Of a stretch of DNA of 64,000 nucleotides, positions 7,978 through 44,100 are shown piece after piece (within the stretch, counting starts at the first letter, position 1; every line of letters starts with the position of its first letter). The position numbers and the translations under genes are program-made. Below the pieces are notes generated by a model. The model searched no databases, was not told the DNA's origin, and saw only the letters and a list, made by a program, of their open reading frames with translations. This stretch comes from Glandiceps talaboti (lineage: Eukaryota > Hemichordata > Enteropneusta > Spengelidae): positions 1,327,001-1,391,000 of the forward strand of contig NC_135553.1 in the NCBI RefSeq assembly GCF_964340395.1. The letters run 5' to 3'.

Positions 7978-8262
7978 AGTACTCGTTAGTAGCTTATAAT
8001 ATCTATGGAGAGATAAACAAATCGTCCTTCATTGTTCGTTATGTCAATGGATAAAAAACTGGAAAAGTTGCCGTCAACATCTGGGATCGTGAGAAACTGC
8101 AGTCGTACCCCGCCGATCTACGAGAATTCCATAAGTACCTACCGTCCGCTCACCTCACAAACTTTTATAGATTGGAACTACCAGTTTGCATATCAGCAAG
8201 TTTGCCAACAATCGGAAAACTTGGAAAAAAAGTTCAACATAATCTCAACCACAGAGAAAAAT

Positions 8263-11200
8263 ATGCAACTCCCGAATCAAAGACATGTAAAACGGTATGC
8301 CGCTATTGTGGTAAGTTGCTGTTTGATACGTGTATGAAAAAAAATTTCACAACATTTTGAACATTGTTCGCTTTGTCATGAACCTACTTAAAATGTTTTG
8401 TGGTATTTTTAAAAAATGTTAGCGATAAAATAATATTTTCATGTTATCGCCTGTGGCAAATAGACTGAATTGTGTTCAAGTTCAATTACCTATACTGGAT
8501 ATTACAGTATTAAAATCAATTTTTTACACTTATGTGTATATGTTAATTTGTCTCAAGGACACTTGTATCATACTTCCATGCTTATATTGTTATGAGAACA
8601 CAAGAACTGAAGAATAATATGTGTTGCCGTGATTTCTCGTAACTTGACAAAATTTTCTAGCCCTTGTACTTCAACTGTGGAAGATTTCGTAAACCACGTT
8701 TCATATTATTCGGTAGATTTCTGTCTGAATGAAGACAAGATTTCACCGTTCTTTATAGCAAAAAATAATGTAGTGAAGGGTAAATTGTTATGTAATGACG
8801 TCATATTTACCACACCTGTTCATAGTTCAAGACAGAGACGGGACGATTAATTCATTTTCAATCTTGTGAGAATAATTATAAAAAATGAATATTCTAATCA
8901 AAATGAAATCATGACTTGCACTTTTTATGGTTGTATTACATGTATGTCATGACCTGCCACCACAGACCACCATTGCATTTGATGTGGTTAGACAACACAA
9001 TTGTAAAGGAATTTTGGTATTCATAAACAGTTGACTCCATTTTGTTTTGCATGCTGCTCTTACCTTTTGAAATTTATACTAGTATGTTATACAGTTTTAT
9101 CACTAACGATATCATAACAAATGTCACACAATAATATCAATAATATATTCAGACACTAGAGATCATGTATCATTTTTTATTTTTTTTATTTTTTTTTTTT
9201 TTTACCTACAGATATTGATTTTGTTTGACTTTGGAGAGAAGTTTGTTAGTGCTGCACCTATTGAGAATTGTTCAGCTAATGACAGACAGTACCTACATAA
9301 TGGTATATGTTGTAATATGTGTCAACCTGGTAAGGCGGATGTCTTTGATATAATAGTTTTCAGAAATAAATAATGTATTGCAATACAATATAATATTACA
9401 TTGAAAAAAATGTAAAATCCTTTGCAATTTTAATATAAGTATTATTCACAAAGTTAATTGTACACAAGACAACAAACTTGGGTGGGGGTGGGGGGGTCCA
9501 TTTTTAGACCAATTAAACCATCACACACAAGTTAATAATTCTTGGACTATGAAGAATACACCAGATCTCAGTTTAACAGAATAAGACAATTGATTGGAAG
9601 AATTTAGTGTCTTATATTAGGTCTCTGATTTGCATATATGCCCACTTAATTGACATTTTGTTAGGTAATTTTGTCTGTTTTCCATAAACATTGTAAGATG
9701 AGAAAGTATATATAAGTTTGGTGTGGATGGTTGGATTTAGCTCTACTAATGAATTCCATTTAAATCTACACATCAATCGAATTTGATAACTATTGATTTA
9801 TTCAAAATTTATGAAAAATTACAAAAAAAATATGAAATTAATAAATATGGAAGTGAAGTTATCCAAGTTATCCTGTATTGTAATAGTAACTATAAAATGA
9901 AGGTAAAATATGGTCTAATGGATGTCCTATGTATTCCATACTGTATTCTGCCCTCTAGTAAACAAATGTACTTTTACATACCTCGTTAAATGTACTTTTT
10001 TATTTTTCCATAGGATACAAGTTATACAGTCACTGTAGAGGGAGACCAGATGACAGAGTGTGTGTGCCATGTCCTAGACTGTATTACACTAGAGACTGGA
10101 ACTATGCTACTGACTGTATAGCTGTCAATCCATGTAATATGAGTAAATATGAATACATACGTATACCAGCAAACTCAGATGGTACTAGTGACAATGTCTG
10201 TGATTGCGTAGCTGGATATGAATATAGTCCGTCTGGAGAAAGATGTCAAAAGATAACGGAATATGTAGATGTAACACTGTCACCAAAATCAACTATAGAC
10301 GGTAGGTCAACTGTATTTCATTGTCATGCCCATGATGACTGCATGCAATTTGACAGATTTTTCTTCTCATTTTTGTTGATTACGTTTTTGTTTATATATG
10401 TATTCTTTTGTTTTAACAGAAACAGTAACAGACATCACTCCAATACAGACAACAAAGAATGGTTCAGTATTGAATACAGCAGTTCCTTCTGAAACCAGTA
10501 CTCAGCAATCCACAGAACCAAATAATGAAAAGAAAGTTGCTCAAATCATAGGCTTTTCACTGGGCACACTTTTGTTAATTTGTCTATGTTTTGTCTTGGT
10601 GTTCTTCAAAAGGAAGAAGATGTTTTGCTTCAAAAATAGGTCCCAACCTGATCCTGGTGAGTTGTTAAATAAGTATACTTAATTTTTCCACAGGATACTG
10701 TGACTGGAGAAGTATTTAATTTTCATTATGTGGCAATCTTAATAAAGTCCACCAAATTAACTCACCTGGGCTTGTTTGCTAATCTTAATAAAGTCCACCA
10801 AATTAACCCACCCAGGCTTGTTTGCCAATCTTCCAAAATAAAGGCTTACAAGTTAGACCAGCTAATACACTTACTTTGTTTTACTAAACAGAACACTTCA
10901 TGTGACATGTACATTTTTTAAAGCAAAGCCAAGCTATGTGACTGAAATCTGTATAAGGTGTTTTTTCTTCTTGACAGTGGAATTGTAGAATTCACTGTGA
11001 ATTAACTAATTATGTAGAATTCACTCTGAATTAACTAATTATGGTAATTATAGGATTTGAGTCTAGTAATGCTTCAACATTAGACATATCTAACCAAAAG
11101 AAATGGCTGCCTACACTTCCATCCCGATATAAGCTTGTTTTTGCATGAAAACAATCCAGCAGAAACTTGTCAAATTTGTTATCTTTGTTGTCTTCCATTT

Positions 11201-12750
11201 CAGAATTGCCAAGTGGAGGAGATAATGCCACAACTGATAGAGGAGAGAATAGACCAATGTTGCCAATAGAAGTTCCAACTAAAGATGTATGTGTCAGTGG
11301 TGATGAGATAGATGAAGGCACTGGTACAGTGACGCCATCCTCAAGGAGAACAAGTGCTGAAGTACAGGAAGACTGTCCAAATACTTCCAGATCAACACTT
11401 AATTCTAGTGGATATCTTGAAGACTATGGTATGTTTTCATTATCAATGTCAACTATGGTCGTGCATGTAGATGTAATAACAGTAATAGTACACATATCAT
11501 ACAGTTTGACCAATAGTGTACATACAGCATGTGTGTGGATGGATTTTGACATGATCTGCAGTTTTATCACTTGATAGTATTGTCCCAGTACTGGCTATAA
11601 AACAAAAATCTGGCCTCTCTCAGCTAAACTTTTTAATATGTCCATCATACTCAAGTTATAATTTTTGGCCAGGCAAATCAAAATGACTAGATTTAAATAC
11701 ATTACTTACACTCTGAATCAAATATATTGTTTAAATTTCTATTCCAGTTCCAGCACCTGTAGGCATGAAAGACAAAGACATTGCAAATTTACGAAAACAT
11801 ATGGATGACTTTGTAAGGGATCTACCAACTCAACGTGTTTTAGATAACATGTCTGATGTAAGTAGTTTGTTACATAGTTAGTCAGACAACAATTCTAATC
11901 AATTTTCAACATTTATGTGTTGTGTTATTAAGGCCCAGTTCAGATTAGGATTCAAATTTAGGTTTAAAAAACAGTTATCTAGCAGAGTTATAGAAAAAGT
12001 TGGTCAAGAACACAGATAGATCCTAAGTAAACAGTTATCTAGCAGAGTTATAGAAAAAGGTGGTCAAGAACACAGATAGATCCTAAGTAAACATTATGAC
12101 ACCATTTATGTGAGAACCTGGGATTGACACCCTGTCCTTTAAAGCCAGCAAGAGACCAAGGCTGTTGACAATGGAACCTGGTTCTGCATACATTTTACCA
12201 TGACTATGATAAGTAAACTTATAAGACAACTCGCATAGTTTTTACCCTCTTTCCATAAAAATGATTATAACATGTCAGCTTTTGGTAGTGTTCTACAAAT
12301 GTTTGTTCCAATTATACAATAGATTAGATTAGATTAGATTAGATTAGTTTAGATTAGATTAGATTTGATTAGATTAGATGTAATTGTTTTACAACTGTAT
12401 AGAAAGTTGTTCACTGATTTTTAGTAGATGTAGTAAAATGACGACTATAAGATGTGGTAAAATGACTAGGAAAGGTATTAGCTTTTAATTCTTCACTGTC
12501 ATTTTTATCAAAATGGTTTATTTTGTGCTACACATATTGAATTAAATGTTTTCATGTTTTGCAGACCTTTTCTTTGGAAGATATTGCAGCTATAACACAT
12601 AGCAGTTTGGATGAATGTAAACAAAGGAGGGAACTTGTTCAAACCCTAATAAGACAAGGACCTGATGCATATGATAAATTTGTTGCAGCACTGGACAAAG
12701 TGTGCAAACATCTAGCAGCTGCACTGAAAGCAGACAAGAAAAAAGTGTGA
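8263..12750 (+). CDS. TNF-receptor-like transmembrane protein with a C-terminal CARD
   Basis: Seven phase-consistent exons: 8263-8310, 9212-9329, 10014-10301, 10420-10656, 11204-11428, 11748-11857 and 12565-12750, giving 403 aa. The start at 8263 is chosen because it yields a basic N-terminus (MQLPNQRHVKR) followed across intron 1 by a hydrophobic signal-peptide core. Residues ~35-145 are TNFR-type cysteine-rich repeats (CCNMCQPGY, CVPCPRLYYTRDWN, CDCVAGYEYSPSGERC). A Ser/Thr-rich stalk precedes a membrane segment at ~191-213 (stop-transfer FKRKK). After an acidic linker, residues ~316-397 (LRKHMDDFVRDLPTQRVLD, GPDAYDKFVAALDKVCKHL) match a CARD, not a death domain. TNFR-CARD is not a vertebrate receptor arrangement. 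An upstream in-frame extension exists but would bury the signal peptide. Confidence 0.8.
11958..12090. repeat. 60-bp tandem duplication in intron 6 of the TNFR-CARD gene
   Basis: A 60-bp block beginning ACAGTTATCTAGCAGAGTTA appears twice back to back (about 11971-12030 and 12031-12090), differing at very few positions. Confidence 0.85.
12319..12380. repeat. AGATT pentanucleotide microsatellite
   Basis: About a dozen AGATT/AGTTT units in intron 6 of the TNFR-CARD gene. Confidence 0.9.
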
Positions 12751-12939
12751 TATCTCCAATGTGGGATCTGTATGTTTGAGGTATGCTGAAAGCAATAACA
12801 TGCCCTTGATAAGTTCTCCTGCCAGATTTAATGACTCTAATGAACAGAGATAGGGATGTCTTTCCATGAATTCATTGTAAGAAAGTGAGTGAAAACTGAT
12901 CACTAGAAAAGGTGTATAAGTTTATCAGTTGCTTTCTAG

Positions 12940-17953: not shown

Positions 17954-20900
17954 CTATTGATTTTCTGCTTTGCAATATGCTATGATTCTTCTTCTTGTAT
18001 TTTCTTCAGCGACTGTTTGAGGGTGTTGTTCTTTACGGTGTTCAGCTACTTCTTTGGTTACATGGTGGTAGACATAGTCAGTCAGTTCATTGAATGTGAT
18101 GTAAGACTGTCTTTTCATCTCATCTCTGTAACTACAGCATTTAGCACACTTACTGTTTTCTGTGGAGTTTTTGAGGCGACATTTCCTTGCAGCATGTAGA
18201 CCTTCTTGTACATGAGTAGTAAAGACACTTTTCCCTGTTTTGTAACCCAGTGCAGTTTCTGGACCTTTACTTGCTGACCACTGCACTATACTGTAGTTTG
18301 CTGATGTTGTTGGACTTGGGGAGGCCTTTTCAATGACATCATCAGACTCTGTAAGTTTGCAGAGATTAGGAATGGCACTACAGAGCTCTTCATCATCACA
18401 ATCAGTAGCTAGATCATTATCACCCTTGGTTACGATAGAAGATGGGCTGTTGACAAAAAATCCACTTGGTAACGGACCATTCTTTGCTGCATAGCAACAA
18501 TCAAGAATAATGAGAAGCTGTGTAAAATTCATCGTGTGAAGTTTCAGTTTTAATTCTGATGCCTGAAGAAAGTCATCACTACCACACACCAGAATTTCAC
18601 CTTGTCGTCCACCATGCCCAGAGAAATGGAAGATCAAACTGGCTTCATGAGCACCACGCATTCTTTCTTCCATAATACTTAACTGTGCTAGAATATTCTT
18701 TGAAGTTGGTTTCAATTCATCTGACACCTGTTTGGATGTCATCAAAATGGCATTTTCTTTCCTGGAAGAATTTCAATGAAAGGATCATTAATTATAAAAA
18801 AGAATTTTTAATAGTTCTTGATTCATAACTATAAGTGTTCTAATTACTATAATACTAAGTAACATTTTACCATCCAGAATGACAAGCTTTTTGAAATTCA
18901 TTTTTTGGCTTTACTGTTAGTTGGCATGGCATGTAACAATGAACACAGTCGTAATTGGCATGCCCCCTCATCCCATTTCATGGTGTTACCATACTCCTCT
19001 ATCTTCTGGTGTGTCAAGAATCACCAATTTGTATAGCGAACTTGTCCTGTTCTCTGTCAACGATCATCAAGTTCCAATAGATGATGTAACTGTATTATTT
19101 TGTATGACATGGTCTGTGATAGCTGTGTTTGACATGGTCTGTGATAGCTGTGTGTGACATATGGTCTGTGATAGCTGTGTGTGACATGGTCTGTGATAGC
19201 TGTGTGTGACATGGTCTGTGATAGCTGTGTGTGACATGGTCTGTGAGAGCTGTGTGTGACATGGTCTGTGATAGCTGTGTGTGACATGGTCTGTGATAGC
19301 TGTGTGTGACATGGTCTGTGAGAGCTGTGTGTGACATGGTCTGTGATAGCTGTGTGTGACATGGTCTGTGTAGCTGTGTGTGACATGGTCTGTGATAGCT
19401 GTGTTTGACATGGTCTGTGATAGCTGTGTGTGACATGGTCTGTGATAGCTGTGTTTGACATGGTCTGTGATAGCTGTGTTTGACATGGTCTGTGATAGCT
19501 GTGTGTGACATGGTCTGTGATAGCTGTGTGTGACATGGTCTGTGATAGCTGTGTGTGACATGGTCTGTGATAGCTGTGTGTGATGGTCTGTGATAGCTGT
19601 GTGTGACATGGTCTACGTTATATACACCATATCACATGACATCATTATAAATATTACTCTCAGGTATTTTTGGTAATTTTACAATATAAATTATTTACCT
19701 AATAGCTCCAATTTCAGGGTGAGTGAAGACTTTGTATAGTCCTTTTGCATCAGGATGAAAGTCGGCATCTGAATCTTTGGTTCCGATGAATATAGCAAAA
19801 CTGTCTGAATGACCTTGATTGACAGAAAAATAAAAAATAAATATTAAGATAAGATACACATAATTAATCATTTGATACATATGAACAAAAACTGCAGCTA
19901 CTAAGGTCACAGGTCAAAGATCAACAGCATGTCAGTACAGTGTATAGTTAAGTTAAATAAACATCTTGCCAAAGCTGTCTTGTGTCCTGGTCTAACTACA
20001 ACCATATGTTTCAATTATTTGACTGGATCTTTGTCAAAAATAAATATATCTACTTGAATTTAATATTTGAAGAGGATTTCATATTTTGAATGTACCACCA
20101 TTTTGTATTTTGCATACAATTGTGTTCAGGATGTGACCAAGCCACCTTTTGCTAGCTGTTAGCTAACTGTTTGTATCCTGAATGCACCCAATGTAGGACA
20201 ACAGTGGACTCCCAGACTTACCTATAGGTGGTTCAGCATCACCATGAGAGGGACAGACCAGTGGATTCTTATCAGAATCTATCAAACACTGTAAACATAT
20301 CTTATCACAACTGCTGTCACAGTAGTGACTTTTCAGAGCAAGACCTCGTACTGAAATATAAAGAATAGAGGAACATATTACTTCATTCTATAATGAGTTG
20401 CTTCTGAAATTAAAAAACAAAGTTGTTAAATTGTACATTTGTGGTGATATATACTTGTGCACCCATAACATATCGATAGTGTTTCTGAGTTCTTCCAAAG
20501 TTAGAAGAAGACATGGCATTCTCTCAGCTGGTGACAACCTGTAGTCACAAACACTCACACTCACACGTTTTAGAGAATTTTATTGTCTACATGTCCTTTA
20601 ATAAATGTACCACATTTCTAAATGGGCAAAGAATGAATTTTGCATTTTATAATAATAATCTTTATTTATACTGGATAGTTCTTTAAGCATATAAACACTT
20701 GTCTCCCAAGAAGTCCAGTGAGGGCCATCCCTCATGGGTTCAGTGTTAATGCAGGAGGAAACCGGAGTACCCGGGGAAAACCTGCGTTGTTCGGTAGAGT
20801 CAAACTGAACGACACTCTTCTTACTTACAGTGTAGTAAATTTAATCGAACCCTGAATGGGGTTCGAACCCCGACCGCAGTGGTAATAGGCAAGTGGTTTA

Positions 20901-23900
20901 ACCACTCGGCCACCGACAACCCATATGTGGTAGAAGTCCTCATTTAATAACTTACCTCTTGGCTGTACAGAGCACATTGCACACAGGTCATCACCAGTGG
21001 GTTCATTATAGATCCTACACTCGGCATCTACTGTTATTTTCTGTGAATGAAGTATAAAAAAATATGGTAAAATTAAGCACTCTTGTTACATTTCAAGTTA
21101 ACCACTGATACTTTATTGGAATACATTTGAAGGAAATATATAAGAGGTAACTTACAGTAAGGTACTATAGAAAGATTAGATAACCTAGAAATTTACATCA
21201 AAAAATGAAAGTACTATATACCTTGTAAGAATACCATCTATTCACACATACCTTGTAAGAATACCATCTATTCACACACACCTTGTAAGAATACCATCTA
21301 TTCACATATACCTTGTAAGAATACCATCTATTCACACATACCTTGTAAGAATACCATCTATTCACACATACCTTGTAAGAATACCATCTATTCACACATA
21401 CCTTGTAAGAATACCATCTATTCACACACAGCTTGTAAGAATACCATCTATTCACACATACCTTGTAAGAATACCATCTATTCACACATACCTTGTAAGA
21501 ATACCATCTATTCACACACACCTTGTAAGAATACCATCTATTCACACACACCTTGTAAGAATACCATCTATTCACACACACCTTGTAAGAATACCATCTA
21601 TTCACACATACCCTGTAAGAATACATCTATTCACACATAGCTTGTAAGAATACCATCTATTCACACATACCTTGTAAGAATACATCTATTCACACATACC
21701 TTGTAAGAATACATCTATTCACACATACCTTGTAAGAATACATCTATTCACACACACCTTGTAAGAATACCATCTATTCACACATAGCTTGTAAGAATAC
21801 CATCTATTCACATATACCTTGTAAGAATACCATCTATTCACACATAGCTTGTAAGAATACCATCTATTCACACATACCTTGTAAGAATACCATCTATTCA
21901 CACATACCTTGTAAGAAATACCATCTATTCACACATACCTTGTAAGAATACCATCTATTCACACACCTTGTAAGAATACCATCTGTTCAGACATACCTTG
22001 TAAGAATACCATCTATTCACACATACCTTGTAAGAAATACCATCTATTCACACATACCTTGTAAGAATACCATCTATTCACACACCTTGTAAGAATACAT
22101 CTATTCACACATAGCTTGTAAGAATACCATCTATTCACACATACCTTGTAAGAATACATCTATTCACACATACCTTGTAAGAATACCATCTGTTCAGACA
22201 TACCCTGTAAGAATACATCTATTCACACATACCCTGTAAGAATACCATCTATTCACACATACCCTGTAAGAATACATCTATTCACACACACCTTGTAAGA
22301 ATACCATCTATTCACACATAGCTTGTAAGAATACCATCTATTCACATATACCTTGTAAGAATACCATCTATTCACACATAGCTTGTAAGAATACCATCTA
22401 TTCACACATACCTTGTAAGAATACCATCTATTCACACATACCTTGTAAGAATACCATCCATTCACACATACCTTGTAAGAATACCATCTATTCATACATA
22501 CCTTGTAAGAATACCATCTATTCACATACCTTGTAAGAATACCATCTATTCACATACCTTGTAAGAATACCATCTATTCACACATACCCTGTAAGAATAC
22601 CATCTATTCACACATACCCTGTAAGAATACATCTATTCACACATAGCTTGTAAGAATACCATCAATTCACATACCTTGTATGAATACCATCTATTCACAC
22701 ATACCTTGTAAGAATACCATCAATTCACACATACCTTGTAAGAATACCATCTATTCACACATACCTTGTAAGAATACCATCAATTCACATACCTTGTAAG
22801 AATACCATCTATTCACATACCTTGTAAGAATACCATCTATTCACATACCTTGTAAGAATACCATCTATTCACATACCTTGTAAGAATACCATCAATTCAC
22901 ATACCTTGTAAGAATACCATCAATTCACACATACCTTGTAAGAATACCATCTATTCACACATACCTTGTAAGAATACCATCTATTCACACATACCTTGTA
23001 AGAAATACCATCTATTCACACATACCTTGTAAGAATACCATCTATTCACACACCTTGTAAGAATACCATCTGTTCAGACATACCTTGTAAGAATACCATC
23101 TATTCACACATACCTTGTAAGAAATACCATCTATTCACACATACCTTGTAAGAATACCATCTATTCACACACCTTGTAAGAATACCATCTATTCACACAT
23201 ACCTTGTAAGAATACCATCTATTCACACATACCTTGTAAGAATACCATCTATTCACACATACCTTGTAAGAATACCATCTATTCACACACCTTGTAAGAA
23301 TACCATCTATTCACACACCTTGTAAGAATACCATCTATTCACACACCTTGTAAGAATACCATCTATTCACATATACCTTGTAAGAATACCATCTATTCAC
23401 ACATACCTTGATTTCATTATTGAATTTCTCCCACTCAATTCTTTTAAATGGGTTCTTCTTTACACATTGACATATCAAATCAGCAAAATTGATTGAAAAA
23501 ATTTTCTCAACTTCATCTTCTACAGGCCAGACATCCTACAACAAAACAATAGCATCATGCTTCCATTTTACTAGCATTGGATACAATGTGTATATGTAAC
23601 AAATCAAGTTCAGGTTATTAGATAGCATTACTGTAAATAGTTACCACTGGGCTAACAAACAAGTAGCCATTTTTTGATTTCTTAATTACAACACACTGAA
23701 TACAACATTGTACTACACCAATATGTTGATGGTCAAAGGAACAGTGCCATACATAAAAACATCAACTTCCTGTTAAAAGTATTTTCAGGACCCTGCAGTA
23801 TTTAATTAATTGTTTTTATTATAATTCTGGTCCGTAAATCATGATCATAACATGTTTGTGTGCATTCAGCAAACTCTGCATAGGCTGGGGTGTGTATTTC

Positions 23901-26900
23901 CTTACTTTGTTAGCTTCCTCTAGTAACTTCATGCAGTCTTTGAAACAACGTTTATTCCTCAGCTCAATATGTAAAGGTTTCCTTTCTGTTTCCAAGAAAG
24001 CCGGCATACAAGTCAACAAACATAACATCACTGAAAAAACAGAACAAATATGAATCAGTATTAAACACAACATCAATGAATACTAATTAATACTATGCAT
24101 TGTTAACATACCAATGCTAAGACCTTCAATTTGCATTGCTAACTTACCAATGCCCAAACTGTCAATCTGTATTGTTAACTTAACTTACCAATGCCAAGAC
24201 TGTCAATCTACATTGTTAACTTACCAATGCCAAGACTGTCAATCTACATTGTTAACTTACCAATGCCAAGACTGTCAATCTACATTGTTAACTTACCAAT
24301 GCCAAGACTGTCAATCTACATTGTTAACTTACCAATGCCAAGACTGTCAATCTACATTGTTAACTTACCAATGCCAAGACTGAAAAGATCGTTGTAAGGC
24401 CTTTGTTTCCATTCATCAAACATAGCTGGGTCTTGATATCCAGGTGTTCCAGGGTGACAAGCTGTTACTGATGCATACGATTTGCCTATATCAAGTTCCT
24501 TTGATAAACCAACATCTCCCAATCTGGCATTGAAATTGTCATCTAGTAGAATATTTCCTGGTTTGACATCAAGATGAAGTATTGTAGGCCTGAGAAAAGA
24601 CAAGGAAAATATCTTTATTTTGAAATTGGTTTCTGTGAACAAAACACTAATTACTAAACCCTCACTCAGTCACACCTTAGTATTAAAGTTGTAATTGTGG
24701 TGAAGTCCAAATACAGGAGAAATAGTCACTGACTAAGACCAGCATCTTGAATTTCATAATGATTTACCAGACATATACACAGAAGAATTTATTACATTCT
24801 ATTTACTCAAGACAAACTCTAGAAAGGCCTTTTTCCACAGATTACTCATTAAATGCAATAACTTACTATCAAACATTATGCCTGCCAAGCTTTGATGTTT
24901 TCAAAAATTATTTTTTAAAATGGTCAGATTCTGGCAAACACTTTAATAGACATACTAAAGCACTATTGAAATTTCAGTTTAATTGTATTAAAACCATCCA
25001 TAATCGCTCACTTGTTTGGTGTTTCTTTGTGAAGATATATCAATGCTGAACTGACTTGATGTACAATAGCAAGACGTCTCTGCCATGTCAGTCTGGGATC
25101 CTTTGAATCTATGGCTTGCTTCAAGTCTCCTCCACTCATATAGGGATATACAATACACATAGGTTTACTGCCAATACAAAGTAAACAGTGGGTCACATGG
25201 GATATACAATACACATAGGTTTACTGCCAATACAAAGTAAACAGTGGGTCACATGGGATATACAATACACATGGGTTTACTGCCAATACAAAGTAAACAG
25301 TGGGTCACATGGGATATACAATACACATAGGTTTACTGCCAATACAAAGTAAACAGTGGGTCACATGGGATATACAATACACATAGGTTTACTGCCAATA
25401 CAAAGTAAACAGTGGGTCACATGGGATATACAATACACATAGGTTTACTGCCAATACAAAGTAAACAGTGGGTTACATGGGATATACAATACACATAGGC
25501 TTACTGCCAATACAAAGTAAACAGTGGGTTACATGGGATATACAATACACATAGGTTTACTGCCAATACAAAGTAAACAGTGGGTCACATGGGATATACA
25601 ATACACATAGGTTTACTGCCAATACAAAGTAAACAGTGGGTCACATGGGATATACAATACACATAGGTTTACTGCCAATACAAGGTAAACAGTGGGTCAC
25701 ATGGGATATACAATACACATAGGTTTACTGCCAATACAAGGTAAACAGTGGGTCACATGCGATATACAATACACATAGGTTTACTGCCAATACAAGGTAA
25801 ACAGTGGGTCACATGGGATATACAATACATATAGGCTTACTGCCAATACAAAGTAAACAGTGGGTCACATGGGATATACAATACACATAGGTTTACTGCC
25901 AATACAAAGTAAACAGTGGGTCACATGGGATATACAATACACATAGGTTTACTGCCAATACAAAGTAAACAGTGGGTCACATGGGATATACAATACACAT
26001 AGGTTTACTGCCAATACAAGGTAAACAGTGGGTCACATGGGATATACAATACACATAGGTTTACTGCCAATACAAGGTAAACAGTGGGTCACATGCGATA
26101 TACAATACACATAGGTTTACTGCCAATACAAGGTAAACAGTGGGTCACATGGGATATACAATACATATAGGCTTACTGCCAATACAAAGTAAACAGTGGG
26201 TTACATGGGATATACAATACACATAGGTTTACGGCCAATACAAAGTAAACAGTGGGTCACATGGGATATACAATACACATAGGTTTACTGCCAATACAAA
26301 GTAAACAGTGGGTCACATGGGATATACAATACACATAGGTTTACTGCCAATACAAGGTAAACAGTGGGTCACATGGGATATACAATACACATAGGTTTAC
26401 TGCCAATACAAGGTAAACAGTGGGTCACATGGGATATACAATACACATAGGTTTACTGCCAATACAAGGTAAACAGTGGGTCACATGGGATATACAATAC
26501 ACATAGGTTTACTGCCAATACAAGGTAAACAGTGGGTCACATGGGATATACCATACACATAGGTTTACTGCCAATACAAGGTAAACAGTGGGTCACATGG
26601 GATATACAATACACATAGGTTTACTGCCAATACAAGGTAAACAGTGGGTCACATGGGATATACAATACACATAGGTTTACTGCCAATACAAAGTAAACAG
26701 TGGGTCACATGGGATATACAATACACATAGGTTTACTGCCAATACAAGGTAAACAGTGGGTCACATGGGATATACAATACACATAGGTTTACTGCCAATA
26801 CTAAGTAAACAGTGGGTCACATGGGATATACAATACACATAGGTTTACTGCCAATACAAGGTAAACAGTGGGTCACATGGGATATACAATACACATAGGT

Positions 26901-27334
26901 TTACTGCCAATACAAAGTAAACAGTGGGTCACATGGGATATACAATACACATAGGTTTACTGCCAATACAAAGTAAACAGTGGGTCACATGGGATATACA
27001 ATACACATAGGTTTACTGCCAATACAAGGTAAACAGTGGGTCACATGGGATATACAATACACATAGGTTTACTGCCAATACTAAGTAAACAGTGGGTCAC
27101 ATGGGATATACAATACACATAGGTTTACTGCCAATACAAGGTAAACAGTGGGTCACATGGGATATACAATACACATAGGTTTACTGCCAATACTAAGTAA
27201 ACAGTGGGTCAGGTAAACTTAAAATAGTGTTCAATAAGATGGTTTGCTCAATACTTTCTTTTTTACCCACCCAGTGGACACACAAACACACACAGACACA
27301 CACACACACACACACACAGACACACACACACGCA

Positions 27335-27407
<73 letters not shown>

Positions 27408-30400
27408 GTAGGATCACCCTACAAACACAAGTACACCAAAACAAATAGAGGCAAAAACACACAAACACAAATATTAAAACGAACAAAGGTTCACATGTAG
27501 TACATCGTACACAATTATACCAGAACAATTAAATCTCACCTCTCTTGTTCACATATACCAATGACTGGCATTATGTAAGGATGTCGTACTTTTGCCACAG
27601 ACCGCTCCTAGAAAGATAAAAAATTACATACCCACTTTGACAGCTGACTGTCCATTCATCACAAAAGTACAAGAAGTATACATTAAAAATTCATCTCTTC
27701 AAATTCAAACTGACAACATTGTATGAATGCAGTGAAAGTCAAGTTTTATGATAACATAGCCATATGACTGAAATTTCTTTGTGTACTAAAATTATAAAAT
27801 GCTATGATATACTATTATACAAATCTAGACAAATAGTCAAGATAATATCTCAATATTAATCAATATACCTGCACACAGACTGCTGTAAATGTGGACCACT
27901 TAGGGCAGTGAGATAAAACACTAAAATGTCGTGGTACACAATCTGAGAACCACTTAGGCCAGTGACAAAATTACAACATAGTATTAGTTTTAGATAACAA
28001 CTACTTAGACTAGCCTAAGAGATATAAGATTTTCATGACTGTTATTACCGTTTATTCAATTTTAGACTTCACATCTGTCCATTGATATTTTTTCAAAATC
28101 AACATTGTTGTATAAATATTAATACTGATATTATAATATTTTGTTAATAACTTCATAACTATCCCTATCAGAAAAACTCACTCACCCTATCAAAGTGTTT
28201 TTCTCCTTGCGAACCAAAAAGCTGTGTGAGTTTCAGTCGCTTCACAGCAACGGTGTAGTCCAACCCACATTTAAGTTTTATTTTACCTGTGAGATGATAA
28301 TGAAATAAGATGGTTATTATTCTATCATGAATCATGATTTTTATGATTGTATTCTATTGCTGCATACCATACAGTCCCAATGCATGAAAAACCATTTTAT
28401 GGATGCACTGCTGTTAATTAATAAATAAAATAAAATAAAATAAATAAATGAATAAATAAATAAGAAATAAACATGAAAGTAAAACAGAATACCCTAAAAC
28501 TGAATGTTGAAATTCTGTCCAAATATGACAAACTAGTATGATATCATGATAAGTGTAATGTGTTGATACTTCTTCTTCCAATCTCATATCATCTACTTAC
28601 CTTTGAACACATCTCCAAATCCACCCTCTGTGCAAATAACGTTTTTGAAGTCACATGCCATTTCTGAAATCTGGTCATAATTGAAAGTCTCCAGTCTGTG
28701 TCCTAAATGTGAGCTTGTCCATTGTAGCACTGGTGCAGGTGCTGTACTCTCCTCTGTTGGATTGGATGGTACAACTTGTGATGAGGGACTAACTGCTGTC
28801 TGTGGAAGGTGAATTTTCACTGGAGATGCAGTCTCTATTATAGGTGATGCAATCTCCATTGATGTTAACGGAACTGGTGTAGGAGAAACTGATGGTTCAG
28901 GAACTGATGCAGCAACATCTGATGTTGCAGTAACTGCTGCTGGACTTGATGTAGTAGAAGGAACAGATGTTGCAGGAAGTGATATTGAAGGCACTGCTAA
29001 TGCTATGGATTGACCATCTGCAAGAGATGAACCACTTGTTACCTCAGTTGAGCCTCCAATAGCAGCTGTTTGTATTGGGGCTGTAGATGGACTAATGGAA
29101 ACTGTCTGTTGTGGAAAGTTTAGTGCTGATGTTCCTGTAGCTGGACTATGGGAAACTGTCTGTTGTGGAAAGTTTAGTGCTGACGTTCCTGTAGCTGGAC
29201 TATGGGAAACTGTCTGTTGTGGAAAGTTTAGTGCTGACGTTCCTGTACGCAGTACACTTTCTTGGTGTCTCATTGAGTCATATGGATTAATAGGATATGC
29301 CATACTACTATCTCTGTATTGCATAGACTGCTCTGTAGTATTAGAAGCTGTGACATCATCACCTTGACCTAATGGCCTTGGTTGAGGAGAGTGTAAATGT
29401 GAAAACATGAATGTGCTTTCTGGAGCTGACGATGGTTTGGTATTATCGTGGGAGATTGCTAAGGATTCACCATATCTAGGTTGAACAGAGCCAAAGCCAA
29501 GTTGTGTGGGAGCCTTGGATCTCTGAGTCATTGCTAATTGAGGGCCTGGTTCATCACCATAGCTGAATGGTCGGGTCTGTACTCTATTATCAGAAGAACT
29601 TAAATCAAGGGCTCTCATTCTATGTGACAATGATTGTCCAAAATATGCAGGACTGAGTAGTTCAGGTGTTGTTGTTGGTGGTGGTGGAACATGTCGTGGA
29701 GTTTGACTTGAGTCAGTACCTGAATAACAAAGATATGACATAAACAATCATGTTCATAAGTCTGAGATACTTCTACACAGTTGCAATTAGATGAAATTTC
29801 ATAATCTATAATCTTTGCATCCAAAATACAATGTATGGTTGTTTTTGGGGGATAGTGGATGTGTAGTTATCTGACCTTCAGTTCCACAGAATCCATATAT
29901 AAACTGTTATGGTTTATTTACTAAATGTATCCTGTACTTAGGTACAGGTAGTGATTAAAACACAGGCATTATACCATACACAAGCCAACTTTACTTAGAC
30001 TACCTTATGAATGAGTTACTTGTACTGAGCGCCCTCAAGCAGTGATTCCTGCAACTAGTTACAGGGATCACATGGCATGCATGGGTCACCACTCGGTAGA
30101 AGTATTTATTTAAAAACATAAAAAGTAAAAATAAAGAAAAAAAAAATATCTGTAAACAAATACAAAGGCAATTTTTGAATTTCCGTGCTCTTATCTGTTA
30201 TTTTTTAAAAGGAACACAAATGAGATGATATGTTACCAGTTTGAGGTGTGTTGCTATGGGTTTGTTTTCTCTGTGTTTCCTGGTAATCTTGGTGTCTTTG
30301 CTGGTAGTCTGATAGTGTTCGCTTGTAGTTGGGTTGTCTTTGCTTGGGGTCCTGTAGCATTTGATTGTAGTCTGATCGTGTTCGTTTGTAGTCCCGTGGT

Positions 30401-32105
30401 GTTTGCTGGTGGTCTGGGACTGTCAGCCCTTGATATGTTGGAGCTCGATATCTATCTGGAGAATACTCTGGTAATAGAATGATAAGAAATCATTATACGT
30501 ATGTTTACGGTGGAAAAGTCTAGAACTTAATGTAAAACAACACATACTTAATAATTGGTAGATATGTAATAACAGAACAAGGAGAATAATAACATGATAT
30601 GCAGTCAATGATAAGAGGTTTGAGTCAATTAGCATAATTTAACATTTGTCTACCAATGTTTACCACAATACTTATCATGGCCTGTATCATACATGTTCAT
30701 TTGCTACACTGTATATTGATCATTATATCATACTCAAGCCAAGTTATTGTCCTCAAACAGAAAATATGGATCATATACCCTGGTCATTCTACATCACAAC
30801 AAACCCATGTCTACATCACTGACTTTGCAGTGTCCAAAATATGAATCAAAAACCTTCCAAATCACCAGATTATGCTTGAGGAGGTATGAATATATTAGTC
30901 CTCAATATTTCACTTCTTTCAGCTGGAAAACACTCATGACCTAAGGGTTTGTCACTACTCATCTAGTAGCTCAGAGTGACAAGGCCCCTTAGGTCACTCG
31001 TATTTTCCTCAGCTGAATGAAGAAAAATATTGGGAACTTATATCTAAATATACAGTACAGTATTGCTCTGGGATTACAAGGACTTTACAATGTTTCATTT
31101 GAAGGGTGACATGGATATGAGATAATTATAGTCCAAGGGTTTCTGTCAAGTAGTGTTATAGATATACAAATGTAGATGTATGCAATACAAAAGGCAAACA
31201 AATTAATTCACCAGATGATCATGTATTTTAAAATACATTCAATTTTCAAATTGCCAAATGTTACAGTTTTGTAGCTAATTTTTAGATTAAGTGAAATATC
31301 TCAAAAAGCAGACTGAAATATATACTACTAGCAAATTGTTGGAAAGTTATTTAGAGTGAAAACTGTAAAAATACAGAAAGTAGTTGATCATTTTGCTGGC
31401 TACTAGCTATTACCCACACCTCTAACTTGATAGGTAGCTATATTGCATGGGATGACCTGAAATTTGTCTTTAAATCAATCTGTAGTTCACATGAGGCTAT
31501 TGTAGTAATATTCATAGACTTGAAGTGACACCAGGGTCTAAGTGCTAACATAGTGTCTCACCTTCAACTAATCTGGCTAAGTCATTCCTTCCAATTGTTG
31601 CAAGTACTCCCTGGAGTCCATCATCTCTAGACAATACCTTAGGATCTTTGGAAAGGACAAGTCTTCTCTCAAGGTGTTTAAAAGTTGTCCAAATGCATTT
31701 TTGTTCACGAACTCTTGCTGTCAATTTCTCTCTAAACTGGTATATGACATCAGCTATATCTTCTCTCTTCAGATTATTTCCAATATGATGTAGTAGTCTT
31801 CGATAAGAACTGATCTTACCTTGGGTTTGAAATTTTCGTTCAACGTCATGTAGATCTTCCCTGAATTTATCTTTGATAAGTTTGTTTTCATCAATAAGCC
31901 ATAGTAACTCTTTGACCAATTCAAGATTTCTTTCACTTATATGCCCCTGCTCTTTCAAGAGGAAGAAAAGATCTACTGCTTTGTCACATCTCTCTAGATT
32001 CCTATCACCAATAAGGTCAGTCAACAGAAATTTTAATCTAACTACATTTGAATCGGTGATTTGATTCGATGTGTTGACGAAAAGTTTATTAATCCACTGT
32101 GCCAT
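17954..32105 (-). CDS. Tandem-DED / IRAK-like kinase / zinc-binding / caspase-like (C14) multidomain protein
   Basis: Thirteen exons in consistent phase: 32105-31562, 30467-30237, 29719-28601, 28286-28186, 27607-27540, 25167-25012, 24589-24369, 24030-23906, 23535-23407, 21040-20956, 20350-20222, 19804-19699, 18761-17954; 1273 aa. DED1 is ~2-76 ([12 protein letters not shown]) and DED2 ~98-181 (RNDL, helix-6 RxDL). A Gln/Ser/Pro linker precedes an IRAK4-like kinase, ~605-895: GGFGDVFKG loop, Lys647 in VAVK, FDRE with Glu666, HLDVKPGN (Asp747, Asn752) and DVG (Asp765). The non-RD loop and DVG are unusual. Residues ~905-960 form a Cys/His zinc-binding module. A C14 domain follows with His1054 (FSGHGG), Cys1094 (LDCCYA) and small-subunit-like [11 protein letters not shown] and ITFNEL. 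The ATG follows a splice acceptor (TTACAG). Exon 12 has an alternative acceptor giving start 19813. Confidence 0.85.
19106..19615. repeat. 25-bp minisatellite in intron 12 of the kinase-caspase gene, ~20 copies
   Basis: The unit GACATGGTCTGTGATAGCTG plus TGTGT repeats every 25 bp with few substitutions (GAGAGC for GATAGC, TTTGA for TGTGA). Open frames on the minus strand spell only a repeated HTAITDHV-type peptide. Unlike the other large arrays of this gene, it contains no exon edge. Confidence 0.95.
20645..20922 (-). mobile_element. tRNA-derived SINE with a conserved-looking central core
   Basis: On the minus strand the element starts near 20922 with GGGTTGTCGG. It carries an A box TGGCCGAGTGG (plus 20902-20912) and a B box GGTTCGAACCC (around 20858-20870), the internal pol III promoter of a tRNA-like head. 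Downstream is a core with GGTTTTCCCCGGGTACTCCG followed by GTTTCCTCCTGC, a motif I associate with widespread animal SINE cores. It ends with AATAAAG and an ATT-type tail at about 20647. It lies in intron 10 of the kinase-caspase gene. I did not find a clear target-site duplication. Confidence 0.8.
21219..23408. repeat. 30-bp minisatellite of ~73 copies, each carrying the splice donor of kinase-caspase exon 9
   Basis: On the gene (minus) strand the unit is GTATGTGTGAATAGATGGTA plus TTCTTACAAG, so every junction reads ACAAG|GTATGTG. Exon 9 ends ATCAAG at 23407 and the array starts at its own donor GTATGTG, so the intron consists of repeated copies of a donor-like sequence. Most units are 30 bp; 28-, 29- and 31-bp variants interrupt. 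In the exon 9 frame the unit is stop-free and encodes [10 protein letters not shown]. The array fills most of intron 9. Confidence 0.95.
24106..24380. repeat. 36-bp repeat spanning the exon 7 donor of the kinase-caspase gene, ~5-7 copies
   Basis: On the gene strand each unit contains AGTCTTGGCATTG|GTAAGTTAAC, that is, the last 13 bases of exon 7 plus its donor (exon end at 24369). At least five copies are near-perfect and the distal ones are diverged. The period is 36 bp. Read-through in frame meets TAG within the first unit, so downstream donors would encode a truncated kinase. Confidence 0.92.
25143..27212. repeat. 56-bp minisatellite, ~37 copies, each carrying the splice acceptor and start of kinase-caspase exon 6
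   Basis: On the gene strand each unit contains TTTGTATTGGCAG|TAAACC followed by the bases for MCIVYP, that is, the real exon 6 acceptor (exon start 25167) plus about 25 bases of kinase coding sequence. Variants are point changes only (AAAGT/AAGGT/TAAGT, GGG/GCG). Because 56 is not a multiple of 3, use of a distal acceptor would shift the frame. The array fills most of intron 5. Confidence 0.95.
27276..27406. repeat. CA dinucleotide microsatellite in intron 5 of the kinase-caspase gene
   Basis: A nearly pure CA run with a few CAGA, CGCA and CAAA interruptions. Frames on either strand give only His-Thr or Cys-Val polymers. Confidence 0.95.
28425..28464. repeat. AATAA/TAAA simple repeat
   Basis: A short run of AAATA and AATA units in intron 3 of the kinase-caspase gene. 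Confidence 0.8.
29092..29262 (-). repeat. 54-bp coding minisatellite inside kinase-caspase exon 3 (18-aa repeat x3)
   Basis: Three nearly identical 54-bp units encode [18 protein letters not shown] in tandem in the Ser/Pro-rich linker between the second DED and the kinase. The last copy diverges at its end (SISPS). The period is a multiple of 3, so the frame is preserved. Confidence 0.95.
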
Positions 32106-33670: not shown

Positions 33671-36323
33671 AAATATATAACAATCTGTCAAGATAATGGT
33701 CAGGGTATTAGACTACAAAGAAAATGTTGGTATCTCTTGTAAAGCAAAAAAATGGAAAAAAAAATTTAATCACATGTAGCACCGTTGATAAGATTTTATA
33801 TAAGCTTAGCACCTGGCAAAACTCTGAGGAGACGATCGCGATCACACGGTAAGATACAAGTGTTAACATTTATTACTAGTTCTAGACTTGTTCAAGTCTC
33901 CGAGCTTTTTTCATTCTTTATTTGAATAAAATATTTGTTTATACAAACAAACAAACAAACAAACAAACAAAAACAGCATAACTGTATTCTTTTGTGTGAA
34001 ATGATAACCTGACTGAGTTATTGCGAAACATATATAGACATTTAGGAGACTTCTAGCAACTGGGAAAATGAAAGAAAAAAATTGACGCTATTTTTCTTTA
34101 CAAAACCAAAAGTGAATAACAAATTGAAAACATTCTAAGGTAAGATTCAAAAATCTCCCACGTGACAGGAGTCAATTTATACGGTGACGTATATTACATA
34201 TCTGAAAGATGTCTAAAGAACTTTTGTGTAGTGCGTTGACATGTGTGGTGCTTTTTTGTGTGAAATAAAAACAATGATATTAACGTCATTAAATAATGAA
34301 ATAAAATAAAATACTATCATATAAGGCAAGAGGGAAGAAAGATAACATTACAGTCGACAGATCTAGAGATACTTTAAACATCGGTTTATCTATTAACGAG
34401 ACTACTGTATTTGGGGAAAACTTTCAGGACTCAGTCTATGAATGCCAACATTATAACACTTCGCATCTTACCCTAAACACCACTACTCGTGAGAGTGACG
34501 AAGCATCTGTGTAAAAAAATGAAAAAGTTTATATTTGCCGGAGAGGAAGGGGTATTATTTACAACTTTTTGACAAAAAGAGCAATATTTCAGAGGCTCAA
34601 CCTGTGATGGCAGGAACAAAAATTGCTCTCAAATCTATGCTGTCATACTATTTGTATCACCCAAAGATATTACAGATAGCACAGACCACACCGGCCTGAG
34701 ATGCCAGGTAACAGGTTCACTTAACGTTATTTGTATTTCAAATGTGTCACATGAAACGCCCATGAAATGGTCATTGATAATCGTTTTTACTTTGAGACCG
34801 TCGGATGTCAGCTCGGACATTTTGTTTCGTTTAGTTTGTGTAAAAACTAATCATCCGTTTTTATTTTCTTACACTTTTTTGATATTTTGGTGACGAAAAT
34901 GCAATATTTCAAAAATCTTGGATAAGAATTATTGTTTTGCAGTATTTTCACCTGTAAAATATAAGATTTGAAAGAGATAACCAAAACTTTAAGATTATAT
35001 TTATCACATTTGCTAAGAAAATAAAAACCCAAAATAGATCAGAAATTATCTAGAATACATTGCATCATATCGGTTACTATTATAATGCTAAATTTGGGGT
35101 ATTCTATCACTGCCCATAAGGGATTGTGTATGATTTTCAAAGAGTACAACATCATGAACATGGAATGAACTTGAAGATGGCCCGGGAAGACAATAATATG
35201 TGGTGTTTGGGTAATTCACAGAAATCAATCATACACTCGGCCTTGCCCTGTATAGCATAAATGATAAGTAAAAATATACTAGTAAAAGAGTACATGTAAT
35301 ATAGCAACTCTTATTTCCCCAGGCTTATCAGATATTTCGACGAGACGTATTTGATCAGAGTGTATTTGACGATGCTGAATTCGAATTTGTACTTTACTTC
35401 AGTGTATATACACAATCTACTTTGCATACAATTACATAAGGGGTCAGAGTTCACAATAGAGTAAACTATACGACATGCCTTTTCAGTGTCTACATATCCA
35501 TCATGCAGTTAGTACATGTACTACCAACAGAAACATCGAAGGTAAGATTGTTTACTCAAAAAACACATATCTGCATTATTTCGTCTGTTCTATTATTTGT
35601 TCACAGGACGATACTTATACGGTGGGCTAAGTGTGCTTTAAAAGAACATAAAATGACCTTCGACCTTTCTATTCCATGGTGTCATGTTTACGTGTATACA
35701 AGTAGTGACACTGACAAAATAACTTATATGACCAGTTCGGTGCATGGGACATATAATCAAACATGTAAAATGACTATGACACATACTGTGTACGTCTTGT
35801 AGGGGTTTTGTGACGTCACATTTACACCCGTTGATAGGATAATACCTGTTATTGAAAACATCAAATTGTGTGACTATATCAATGCTAAACTCGATGACCA
35901 ATTAACAAAGAAACCTTTTTTAAGTCAATGTTACTGTATTCTCTGCGGCAATGAATTTGCTCTGCTATGCTACTCTGTCAGTCCACAGATTCATTCGTAA
36001 CGTTTGCAGTTCGACAAAACAAGAGACTAGTTGCATAAAGTGTATGTGTATACATGGGGATACATCGAAACATTGATTTTTTTTTTCGGAAGAAAAATTA
36101 CCTCATATGACATTTTGACATGTTAATGAACTATATTTTATTGGTTGATAATAAATCATTTAAATGTCTACAGTAGAATGACATATTTCTTTCTTTTCTC
36201 ACCGTCTTTCAAAGTGGTCACCGGTTAAAGAGGTATGAAGTACCTGAAGTAGAGAGGAATCGTCTCATCTATCGCACAAAACGTTAGTTGACTACTGTTC
36301 GAGTACTTTCCCACCCCTACGCT
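33671..36323. other. Intergenic interval upstream of the SLC46-like gene
   Basis: No exon with family features is seen. It holds an AAAC tetranucleotide run (about 33944-33972) and AT-rich single-copy sequence. Open frames such as that near 35503-35802 lack any recognisable motif. The last ~300 bases should contain the SLC46-like promoter, but no clear core element could be fixed. Confidence 0.5.
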
Positions 36324-40373
<4,050 letters not shown>

Positions 40374-41146: not shown

Positions 41147-44100
41147 TTAGACTAATTTATAAAAATCGACACCATTTTTGGTTACCATGGTAGATTGAGA
41201 TGTATGGGAGTACATCTTACAGTTATCTGTACCATCAACGTTGTTAGAGTCGTATGTGAATCCTAAACAATGTGTTGTGAATGTACATTGTCGACCACAC
41301 GCAATAGGAGAATAACTCATTTTCGTGTCTAAAGTTTCTGTTGTATGTTCCTTATCTTCTTCGAGTTTTACGTAGTTGTTCTGTTTTGACACTATAAAGA
41401 ACAAAAAGAAACCACAGTCAATGACAGCAGGTATTCTGGGAATAAATATCAAATGTAAACATTCACATTTTGCCATACATTAAGCTTGACATACATTTTT
41501 CTGTATATAAGATAACATCAGTACCAATACTAGTAGTGTAATGAGAATCTAAACTTAACCAATATGCTGTAACCATGGTAACAATTTCAATTAGCTGTTG
41601 CTTTCCCAAACTTAGTCTATTAAAATATGAACAAAATTAGTCTTTTTTGTTGTCAAATATTGCTATGATTTTAGACGGTAGTGAGATGAATAAATAAACG
41701 TGTTCAGAATGACTATATTTATTTATGCGTTTCATCAAAGTGACCTTTAATCCGTTAATGCCAAGTGGATTAAAATGATAAAGGTGTGATTAATATCCGA
41801 GATTTTAATTATTTACAATCGTTTAGACAATGAGAGCAAAGGAAAGGGAAGAAAACCTGTTCGTCAGACTGACAGTGCATGCAGTGATAACGTAGAACAT
41901 AACTTGTATTGTGTAGTATTTTAAGGGAGCACAAACTTAGTTTATACGTTTTGGGCATAATATATGCTACATGTTTAAAAAGTCACACTCTCAGTATTGT
42001 ATAGTCTGTAAAGTACGCCGTGATGGGGCGCCCTCACACATCGATATATTACATGCATGTACGTATATTGAATATGCAAACGGCATTCTATTTCATACGT
42101 GAGAGAAGGCCGGTGAGGGCGGAACGACACAACGATTCTTACAGCCTAAGTATTGCACGTCTTGAATTCCACTACAAACACACTACCACCCTTCTTATGT
42201 ACCAGACACAAACACACAGACAATATATTCGGAAACAGAATATGAGATGATGAGAGCCAGACCCTAGACAAGCGGCTGGACCATTTATTCAAGATGTGAG
42301 AAATGAACTCATACAAGTATCATAAATGCACACTAGTGCTATACGTACGCAAACTTAACAAAAGTTGAAATAACAGTATGTCTTATTACTGTGCATGGTA
42401 CAGAGCAAACCCGTCAACACCCTATCATGCCAGCCAGGAAAAACAGAGGTTAAAACCTTAACATACAAATTTGGAAAAAATCTCTGAAACCTGTAGTCCG
42501 TTTGCTTATGCATGATCGGGTTCAAGGTGTGGTGTTGGACCTCACCACAGTACCATGAAAACGTAAATTAAAACGAATTAACAATACGAAAGATATATAT
42601 ATATAGACTATGGCAATGGGAACGACCCCAATGTGATACATAATGGTATGTTACATTACTTGTAACTAAAAACACACAGGAAATGTGTCACTGCCAGAAA
42701 ACGTCAGAACATGCGTGGAAAACGTGCACACTATTAAAACTGTGAAAACACGTGACATCAAGACAGTGATTTCGATACTATACTGACGAAACGTGCGAAA
42801 TCATATTTACTGACGTTTTCCTAACCATCAATTGCAGTTGACTAAACTCAAACCTGGTATTAAGGTATAATTTGTAAACTATCCGATGACGGAATTTTTT
42901 ATGTGTAAAAATGTCGAGGAAGTCCACACGTTAATATTGTAACAATGCAAGAAGACAATTGTAATTGTAATGACGTCATGGAAGGCATCCACCTACATTG
43001 ACTTTATACTAAAATAGTTTAATCTATACGTGTTATGCAAGTATTTTCATTTGAGTAAAAAGATTATTAACTCAGCCTGTGCCACTTTAATTATAGTGAC
43101 AAATGAAGTACAGCCAAGGAAATATAGCTTCACAGGGTATACGTTATATCACTCACAATACTACAGCAAGACATACACCAAATGATTGACACGTTATCAC
43201 GATATCACAGCTAGACATACACCAAATGATTGACACGTTATCACGATATCACATCAAGACATTCACCAAATGATTGACACGTGAACATGATATCACAAGA
43301 CATTCACCAAATGATTGACACGTTATCACAACAAGACATTCTCCAAATGATTGACACGATATCACAAGACATTCACCAAATAATTGACACGGTAACACGA
43401 TATCACAGCAAGATAGCAAGACATATTGACACGTTTGAGTCTTACCTTTATTGGCTTTACATGCAGCTCGATACCTTGCATCGCATGATTTGTCTTGCCA
43501 TACGCCATTATCATTGACTATAATCACGGCACAATTCTGATCCAGTCCTCCATTGGGTTGACTGTTTTTCCAATTGAAATATACAGTATCTGTATCACTT
43601 GACGCATACCTCCATACCCCTTCAACATTGAGGTCATTTTGACCAAGCCAATAACCAAACCTATTAGATTACAACGTATAAAATTTATATAGAACAATTC
43701 TAAAACAAAGTATGATGGACTTCTGACAGCTCCCGTTACCATGGTTACTGTTGTCTGCATACAAAGAGTGACGTTGTGGGGCCCATAGCTCTGGTGCAAC
43801 TTTTCACGATAAGAAAATGTACCAAACCATTGGAATTCACCTTCCTACTCACTCGCCCACTTCAGAATAATCAGACTTGAAATGATAATGACAAAACAAA
43901 ACGTACAGACTGAACGCGCCATAATTTCATAAAACTTGTTCGTGGAGTACTTCTTAACAGGTGGTTTTGTGGAATGATCCGAGAACGGACATTATATCGG
44001 GACTGGAATTGCATGTTTTCAACGTGTTCCAATCCCTGAAGTAAAAGGAATCTCTGCACAGAGTGCGTATATGGTGAATAGTCGTTGAACGTATCTTTTG

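Follow-up and report, generated by a model that had tools for sequence, protein, structure and literature searches.

A gene of the acorn worm Glandiceps talaboti, an enteropneust hemichordate, encodes one protein in which tandem DEDs, a long linker, a Ser/Thr kinase of the IRAK type, a zinc-binding-type module and a metacaspase-type C14 protease follow one another on a single chain. The gene lies on the minus strand, from 32105 to 17954, of the window (the whole 64,000-nucleotide stretch analysed here, from contig NC_135553.1, in whose coordinates all positions are given). The kinase, zinc-type and protease parts recur in the same order in relatives from three phyla, and the gene belongs to a kinase-protease family that is genuine and conserved, apparently not described before, and made of known domains in a new arrangement. 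We consider it probable that the protein operates as a single-chain dual enzyme, in which clustering through the DEDs would activate both the kinase and the protease, the latter cleaving after Arg or Lys.

Gene model and isoforms

An independent rebuild of the gene gave 13 exons totalling 3831 nt, including the stop codon, and a product of 1276 aa; all 12 exon junctions have GT-AG borders and are phase-compatible. A preliminary description of this DNA had reported 13 junctions in agreeing phase over 3822 nt; the phase agreement stands, but both counts are replaced by those of the rebuild. The rebuilt product is identical, residue for residue, to isoform X1 (P0002) of NCBI LOC144435020, which carries the name "uncharacterized protein", in keeping with the earlier proposal that one chain joins the DEDs, kinase, zinc-type module and protease. 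Isoform X2 (P0001, 1042 aa), like X1 an NCBI gene model, equals X1 minus residues 259-492. It results from an acceptor inside exon 3 at 29017, through which 234 residues of the Ser/Thr/Pro-rich linker (window 29018-29719) are dropped; the part removed includes a 54-bp (18-residue) tandem repeat. The exons, all on the minus strand, are as follows.

Exon 1, 31562..32105, minus: 544 nt, residues 1-181, tandem DEDs with RNDL at 173-176 (splice model and Pfam)
Exon 2, 30237..30467, minus: 231 nt, Q/R/Y/D-rich linker (splice model)
Exon 3, 28601..29719, minus: 1119 nt, Ser/Thr/Pro-rich linker, then the start of the kinase with the Gly-rich loop GGFGDV (624)
Exon 4, 28186..28286, minus: kinase N-lobe, VAVK with the predicted catalytic Lys 647
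Exon 5, 27540..27607, minus: kinase, predicted alpha-C Glu 666
Exon 6, 25012..25167, minus: middle of the kinase domain (splice model)
Exon 7, 24369..24589, minus: kinase catalytic loop HLDVKPGN (745-752) and GDVG (Asp 765)
Exon 8, 23906..24030, minus: kinase C-lobe (splice model)
Exon 9, 23407..23535, minus: end of the kinase C-lobe, up to residue 898 (splice model)
Exon 10, 20956..21040, minus: first part of the zinc-type module (Cys 918, Cys 921)
Exon 11, 20222..20350, minus: remainder of the zinc-type module (C937, C941, C945, C948, C959, H962), with the larger part of the AEPPIGH block
Exon 12, 19699..19813, minus: first strand and helix of C14, FHPDA, invariant Asp 991
Exon 13, 17954..18761, minus: 808 nt, p20-like part of C14 with SGHGG (His 1057) and LDCCYA (Asp 1095, Cys 1097)
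Exon 13, continued, 17954..18761, minus: variable acidic linker, p10-like part (QWSAS 1168), Cys 1202/1213/1216, stop

A joined unit shared by three phyla

Relatives were sought in a collection of 5.8 billion proteins by a search that requires shared exact five-residue words. With residues 600-1276 as the query, 67 of 2987 candidates scored at E<=0.001: the two Glandiceps isoforms, one protein of Ptychodera flava, two of Owenia fusiformis (P0004 and P0005) and 62 others (P0006-P0067), for which a kinase, but no C14, is among the Pfam domains listed. By phmmer over the same residues, the Ptychodera protein matched at 6.1e-235 (55% over 99%) and the Owenia proteins at 1.0e-79 and 1.5e-72 (31% over 99% and 30% over 94%). 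The search with residues 905-1276 returned five proteins, the new one being a 1324-aa protein of the coral Stylophora pistillata (6.1e-30), whose cluster holds 8 sequences. A profile search found seven proteins among its first 8000 candidates, of which the only new ones were two C14 proteins of bacterial type (P0069 and P0070). The coral protein had been missed by the residues 600-1276 search, and P0005, which also falls outside the length range of the profile search, was missed by the 905-1276 and profile searches; given these missed members and saturation at 8000 candidates, absence from the results is weak evidence.

The family comprises five non-redundant proteins from four named species in three phyla (Glandiceps, Ptychodera, two from Owenia, and Stylophora). 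Pfam assigns C14 to three of them at full length and to a fragment of P0004. All five members keep the order kinase, zinc-type module, C14, and because this order is kept across three phyla, the fusion is no accident. An unlikely alternative to one ancestral gene is that these proteins arose by separate fusions in individual lineages, or spread laterally between marine invertebrates. Their occurrence is indeed patchy, only four named species having been found in the whole collection, and one study reports immune architectures common to cnidarians and hemichordates among marine invertebrates and raises lateral transfer for them (PMC8195603). However, the three domains diverge roughly in parallel, with kinase/zinc/C14 identities of 57/62/55% between Glandiceps and Ptychodera, 33/44/31% between Glandiceps and Owenia P0004, and 39/41/29% between Glandiceps and Stylophora, which favours inheritance of the joined unit as one. 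The conserved order and zinc-ligand spacing in all five members argue in the same direction, and the failure of a word-based search to recover known members weakens the case from patchiness.

Tandem DEDs and a variable N-terminus

Pfam matched DED to two stretches at the N-terminus of the Glandiceps protein (1.3e-23, 83.4 bits against a curated cut-off of 35.9), as had been proposed, and the caspase-8 prodomain matched across residues 12-154 (2.1e-11). No Death domain match was obtained at E<=1 with Pfam in this protein, which has DEDs instead. The RxDL-type surface motif serves DED-DED contacts. Judged by sequence position only, motifs of this type stand at 173 (RNDL, second DED) and 82 (REDL) in Glandiceps, at 74 (RFDL) in the coral and at 241 (KKDL) in Owenia P0004; none was found in the Ptychodera N-terminus. 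A DED precedes the kinase in three of the five members, Glandiceps, Stylophora and Owenia P0004, although the last of these (2.8e-7, 31.1 bits) scores under the Pfam cut-off. P0004 also has a weak N-terminal TIR match (E 0.057, under the cut-off), and the N-terminus of P0005 consists of ankyrin repeats.

An IRAK-type kinase with conserved catalytic residues

The kinase domain passes the curated Pfam cut-off (Pkinase, 8.3e-35), and its closest group is IRAK/RLK, with the IRAKs tied with plant receptor-like kinases, which agrees with its earlier description as IRAK-like. The protein is not an IRAK, having no N-terminal death domain, but by analogy it may work like one. Among the PADLOC matches listed (25 of 29, 25 of 35, 25 of 28 and 25 of 25), all fell within the kinase, with mad6 first; 17 phage records were matched, the best 5 of the 17 over the kinase.

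The catalytic Lys, the HxDxKPxN motif and the metal-binding Asp are kept in all five members from three phyla, as are the protease His and DCC. This conservation bears on a further possibility that we regard as improbable, namely that the protein is a signalling scaffold with one dead enzyme, in which one of the two, kinase or protease, would be a pseudoenzyme and control assembly, much as cFLIP acts towards caspase-8 and IRAK3 towards the IRAKs. Such partnerships provide the precedent, but retention of both sets of residues across three phyla argues against it.

An eight-ligand zinc-type module

Between the kinase and the protease, no family member departs from Cys 918, 921, 937, 941, 945, 948 and 959 and His 962. 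Their spacing, C-x2-C-x15-C-x3(6)-C-x3-C-x2-C-x10-C-x2-H, is found in all five and is followed by a P-P-I-G block, so the zinc-binding-type module recognised in the preliminary description is upheld, and zinc binding by the eight ligands is predicted. We take the spacing to resemble a RING cross-brace and, presumably, to be unlike an LSD1-type finger. No Pfam family rose above its cut-off at E<=10 for the five modules. No known name fits the module, the only candidates being FYVE_CARP1-2 (2.1, Glandiceps) and zf-RING_2 (0.2, coral), both under the cut-off.

A metacaspase-type protease

Peptidase_C14 matched the Glandiceps protein above the curated Pfam cut-off (4.9e-8). In leave-one-out models, which for the two hemichordate and two Owenia proteins were built also without the sister sequence, each of the five C14 domains scored 134 to 156 bits; shuffled sequences (500 shuffles each) reached no more than 8.8 bits. 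The active-site motifs are SGH (His 1057) and LDCCYA at 1094-1099 (Cys 1097); QACxG is absent. The His-Cys dyad in its SGH and D-x-C context is invariant in seven of seven sequences (five family members and two bacterial-type proteins). A profile of these seven reached metacaspase-4 in the PDB at 3.4e-9, then metacaspase-1, metacaspase-9 and MCA2; GPI transamidase was weaker, and rows for c-Jun/AP-1 and MIF were at chance level. No animal caspase catalytic domain appeared at E<=1 in the PDB with this profile. When the two bacterial-type sequences were left out, the profile still reached metacaspase-9 (1e-5), and caspase-8 matched with its best stretch in the DED part. These results agree with the earlier assignment to the metacaspase-type C14 class.

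A classical, Asp-specific, apoptosis-executing initiator caspase with an inserted kinase, that is, a hemichordate counterpart of caspase-8, is accordingly very unlikely. The caspase-8 prodomain match and the DED-DED...protease order speak for it, but DCCYA stands in place of QACxG, the PDB profiles reach metacaspases and no animal caspase catalytic domain, and the bacterial EACC1 caspase model (NCBIfam caspase_w_EACC1) matched, though far under its cut-off, in four of the four proteins scanned. We rejected this reading on the active site and the profile searches. The analogy with caspase-8 drawn in the preliminary description holds for the domain order; it fails for the protease class and, if the prediction below is right, for the cleaved residue.

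Asp 991 and Asp 1095 are invariant in all seven sequences and align to metacaspase-4. We take their positions to be those of the acidic S1 pocket with which metacaspases accept a basic P1 residue (Arg/Lys); we therefore predict, from aligned sequence, that the protease cleaves after Arg or Lys and not after Asp. In the AlphaFold2 models, the p20-like part has a pLDDT (predicted local distance difference test) of about 68-89, the protease His and Cys are placed where two strands end or just beyond, and the linker ahead of the QWSAS strand is of low confidence. Cys 1202, 1213 and 1216, in the p10-like part encoded by exon 13, are also invariant in the five relatives and possibly form a second metal site or a redox control.

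Splice borders and minisatellites

That the annotation merged two adjacent genes is scarcely credible. Large minisatellites in the introns could mislead gene models, but those of Ptychodera, Owenia and the coral continue across the same junctions; each of the ten from 3/4 to 12/13 lies within sequence aligned across the hemichordate, annelid and coral relatives; and X1 and X2 both span exons 9/10 and 12/13, where a split had been considered. A two-gene artefact was rejected on these grounds.

Three minisatellites lie at splice borders of the gene, with repeat units that copy the splice site itself. The one at the exon 7 donor (24098-24382, 36 bp x 7.8) contains GGCATTGGTAAGT 7 times, that at the exon 9 donor (21218-23410, 30 bp x 74) contains AAGGTATG 43 times, and that at the exon 6 acceptor (25143-27211, 56 bp x 37) contains TTGGCAGTAAAC 33 times. 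Dozens of candidate decoy splice sites are possible within this one gene, and the copies bear on how such introns grow and get spliced.

Neighbouring genes

Roughly 5 kb separate the end of a convergent plus-strand gene (9212-12751) from the DED-kinase-protease gene. The product of this neighbour has a Cys-rich ectodomain that is TNFR-like by eye (no Pfam match). A hydrophobic stretch resembling a transmembrane segment comes next, then an intracellular CARD that passes the Pfam cut-off (PF00619, 2.1e-6). Against the PDB, this CARD gave weak matches to Apaf-1 (0.71-0.91), with polyamine-modulated factor 1 ranked above it. A CARD, and not a death domain, behind a TNFR-like ectodomain seems unusual. 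Two further features of the window are open reading frames (ORFs).

36288-37349, plus: MFS transporter-like ORF (PF07690, 2e-17)
43249-43668, minus: C-type lectin ORF (PF00059, 1.3e-8)

Discussion

In the operation we propose, the tandem DEDs would join a DED assembly, either a platform like that of FADD and the DED caspases or a filament of the protein itself. Crowding would then allow trans-autophosphorylation of the kinase, as in the IRAK/RIPK group, and would bring the C14 domains near enough for activation by proximity. Cuts would probably fall in the long, variable stretch that separates DCCYA from QWSAS, a candidate site of processing, and the activated protease would cleave its substrates after Arg or Lys. 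By analogy, the protein may serve innate immunity or regulated cell death.

Several observations weigh against this single-chain dual enzyme. On the input side, neither the Ptychodera model (943 aa, with no N-terminal domain match) nor Owenia P0005 has a DED match with Pfam, so DED input is not universal. The DFG position reads DVG, DAG or DPS across the family, and kinase activity is therefore likely but not sure. With a Pfam cut-off of 21.4 bits, C14 reaches modest scores of 27.8 to 33.4 bits in three members. At full length, the two Owenia proteins had no C14 match at E<=0.1; the P0004 fragment by itself had one (1.9e-6), and P0005 is assigned by alignment and by the 139.8 bits it scored in the leave-one-out test. 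A single C14 sequence against the PDB reached metacaspase-9 at only 0.014-0.015, followed by an unrelated chain (0.051) and by metacaspase-1 (1.1). The two AlphaFold2 models have low means (47.0 and 52.3), with residues 1-181 at 24-54 in the first and the zinc-type module below 50, and thus without a resolved fold, in both. In the structure comparisons with Foldseek and VIA-align, kinases filled the best 50 rows of each, so these bear on neither the C14 fold nor the zinc fold and do not speak against an animal-caspase fold. Finally, the predicted basic-P1 preference draws on the structure of metacaspases, and the immune role on analogy only.

Each module has known counterparts. Like caspase-8 and the other DED initiator caspases, the Glandiceps protein has tandem N-terminal DEDs, and a C-terminal caspase-family protease in which a variable linker joins the p20-like part to the p10-like part; unlike them, it carries an IRAK-type kinase and a zinc-type module in between, and its protease has DCCYA and two invariant Asp residues, not QACxG. 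With IRAK4, IRAK1, Pelle and the RIPKs it shares a kinase of the IRAK/RLK group behind a death-fold docking domain, but that domain is a DED in place of a DD or CARD, and the chain continues at its C-terminal end into a fused protease. Metacaspases (metacaspase-4, -1, -9 and MCA2) are the nearest solved protease sequences; they occur in plants, fungi and protists, and type I metacaspases also have a zinc finger ahead of the protease. The Glandiceps protein differs in being an animal protein with DEDs and a kinase, and its zinc module has no Pfam match above the cut-off. The best other C14 relatives found, the bacterial-type P0069 and P0070 (NCBIfam caspase_w_EACC1), have SGHG and LDCCYAA but no DED or kinase match, and the scores of the animal family fall well short of the NCBIfam cut-off.

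The nearest hybrids in the excerpts available join adaptor to effector domains: TNFR-caspase and DED-NACHT genes in amphioxus, where the hybrid caspases keep QACXG (PMC2575513), and NG3 in sea anemones, which combines a kinase with a death domain, TIR and Roc/COR (PMC5094078); no DED-kinase-protease is listed in those excerpts. Among the matches listed in open-access full text, with supplements and subscription journals outside the scope, a DED-kinase-C14 protein was not described, nor does one appear in the available excerpts of PMC8195603, PMC2575513, PMC5094078, PMC5013795, PMC9835746 and PMC2246300.

The protein looks like an old animal signalling switch. More tentatively, and with a likelihood we put slightly below even, eumetazoans inherited self-contained kinase-protease death-fold switches with an Arg/Lys-specific, metacaspase-type protease. 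The kinase/zinc/protease core of this family would be conserved and its sensor end exchangeable (DED, ankyrin, possibly TIR), and vertebrates would have split or lost it. In the usual account of animal death-fold signalling, adaptors, kinases and caspases are separate proteins brought together in short-lived complexes; if the proposal is true, one conserved chain with all three functions would be a natural in-cis signalling complex. To our knowledge, animals are generally held to lack metacaspases, and here a metacaspase-type enzyme would be used in animal DED signalling. MALT1 is a known case of Arg/Lys proteolysis in animal immunity. Mutual in-cis control of kinase and protease is now testable in corals, acorn worms and annelids, as is Arg/Lys proteolysis in animal immunity beyond MALT1.
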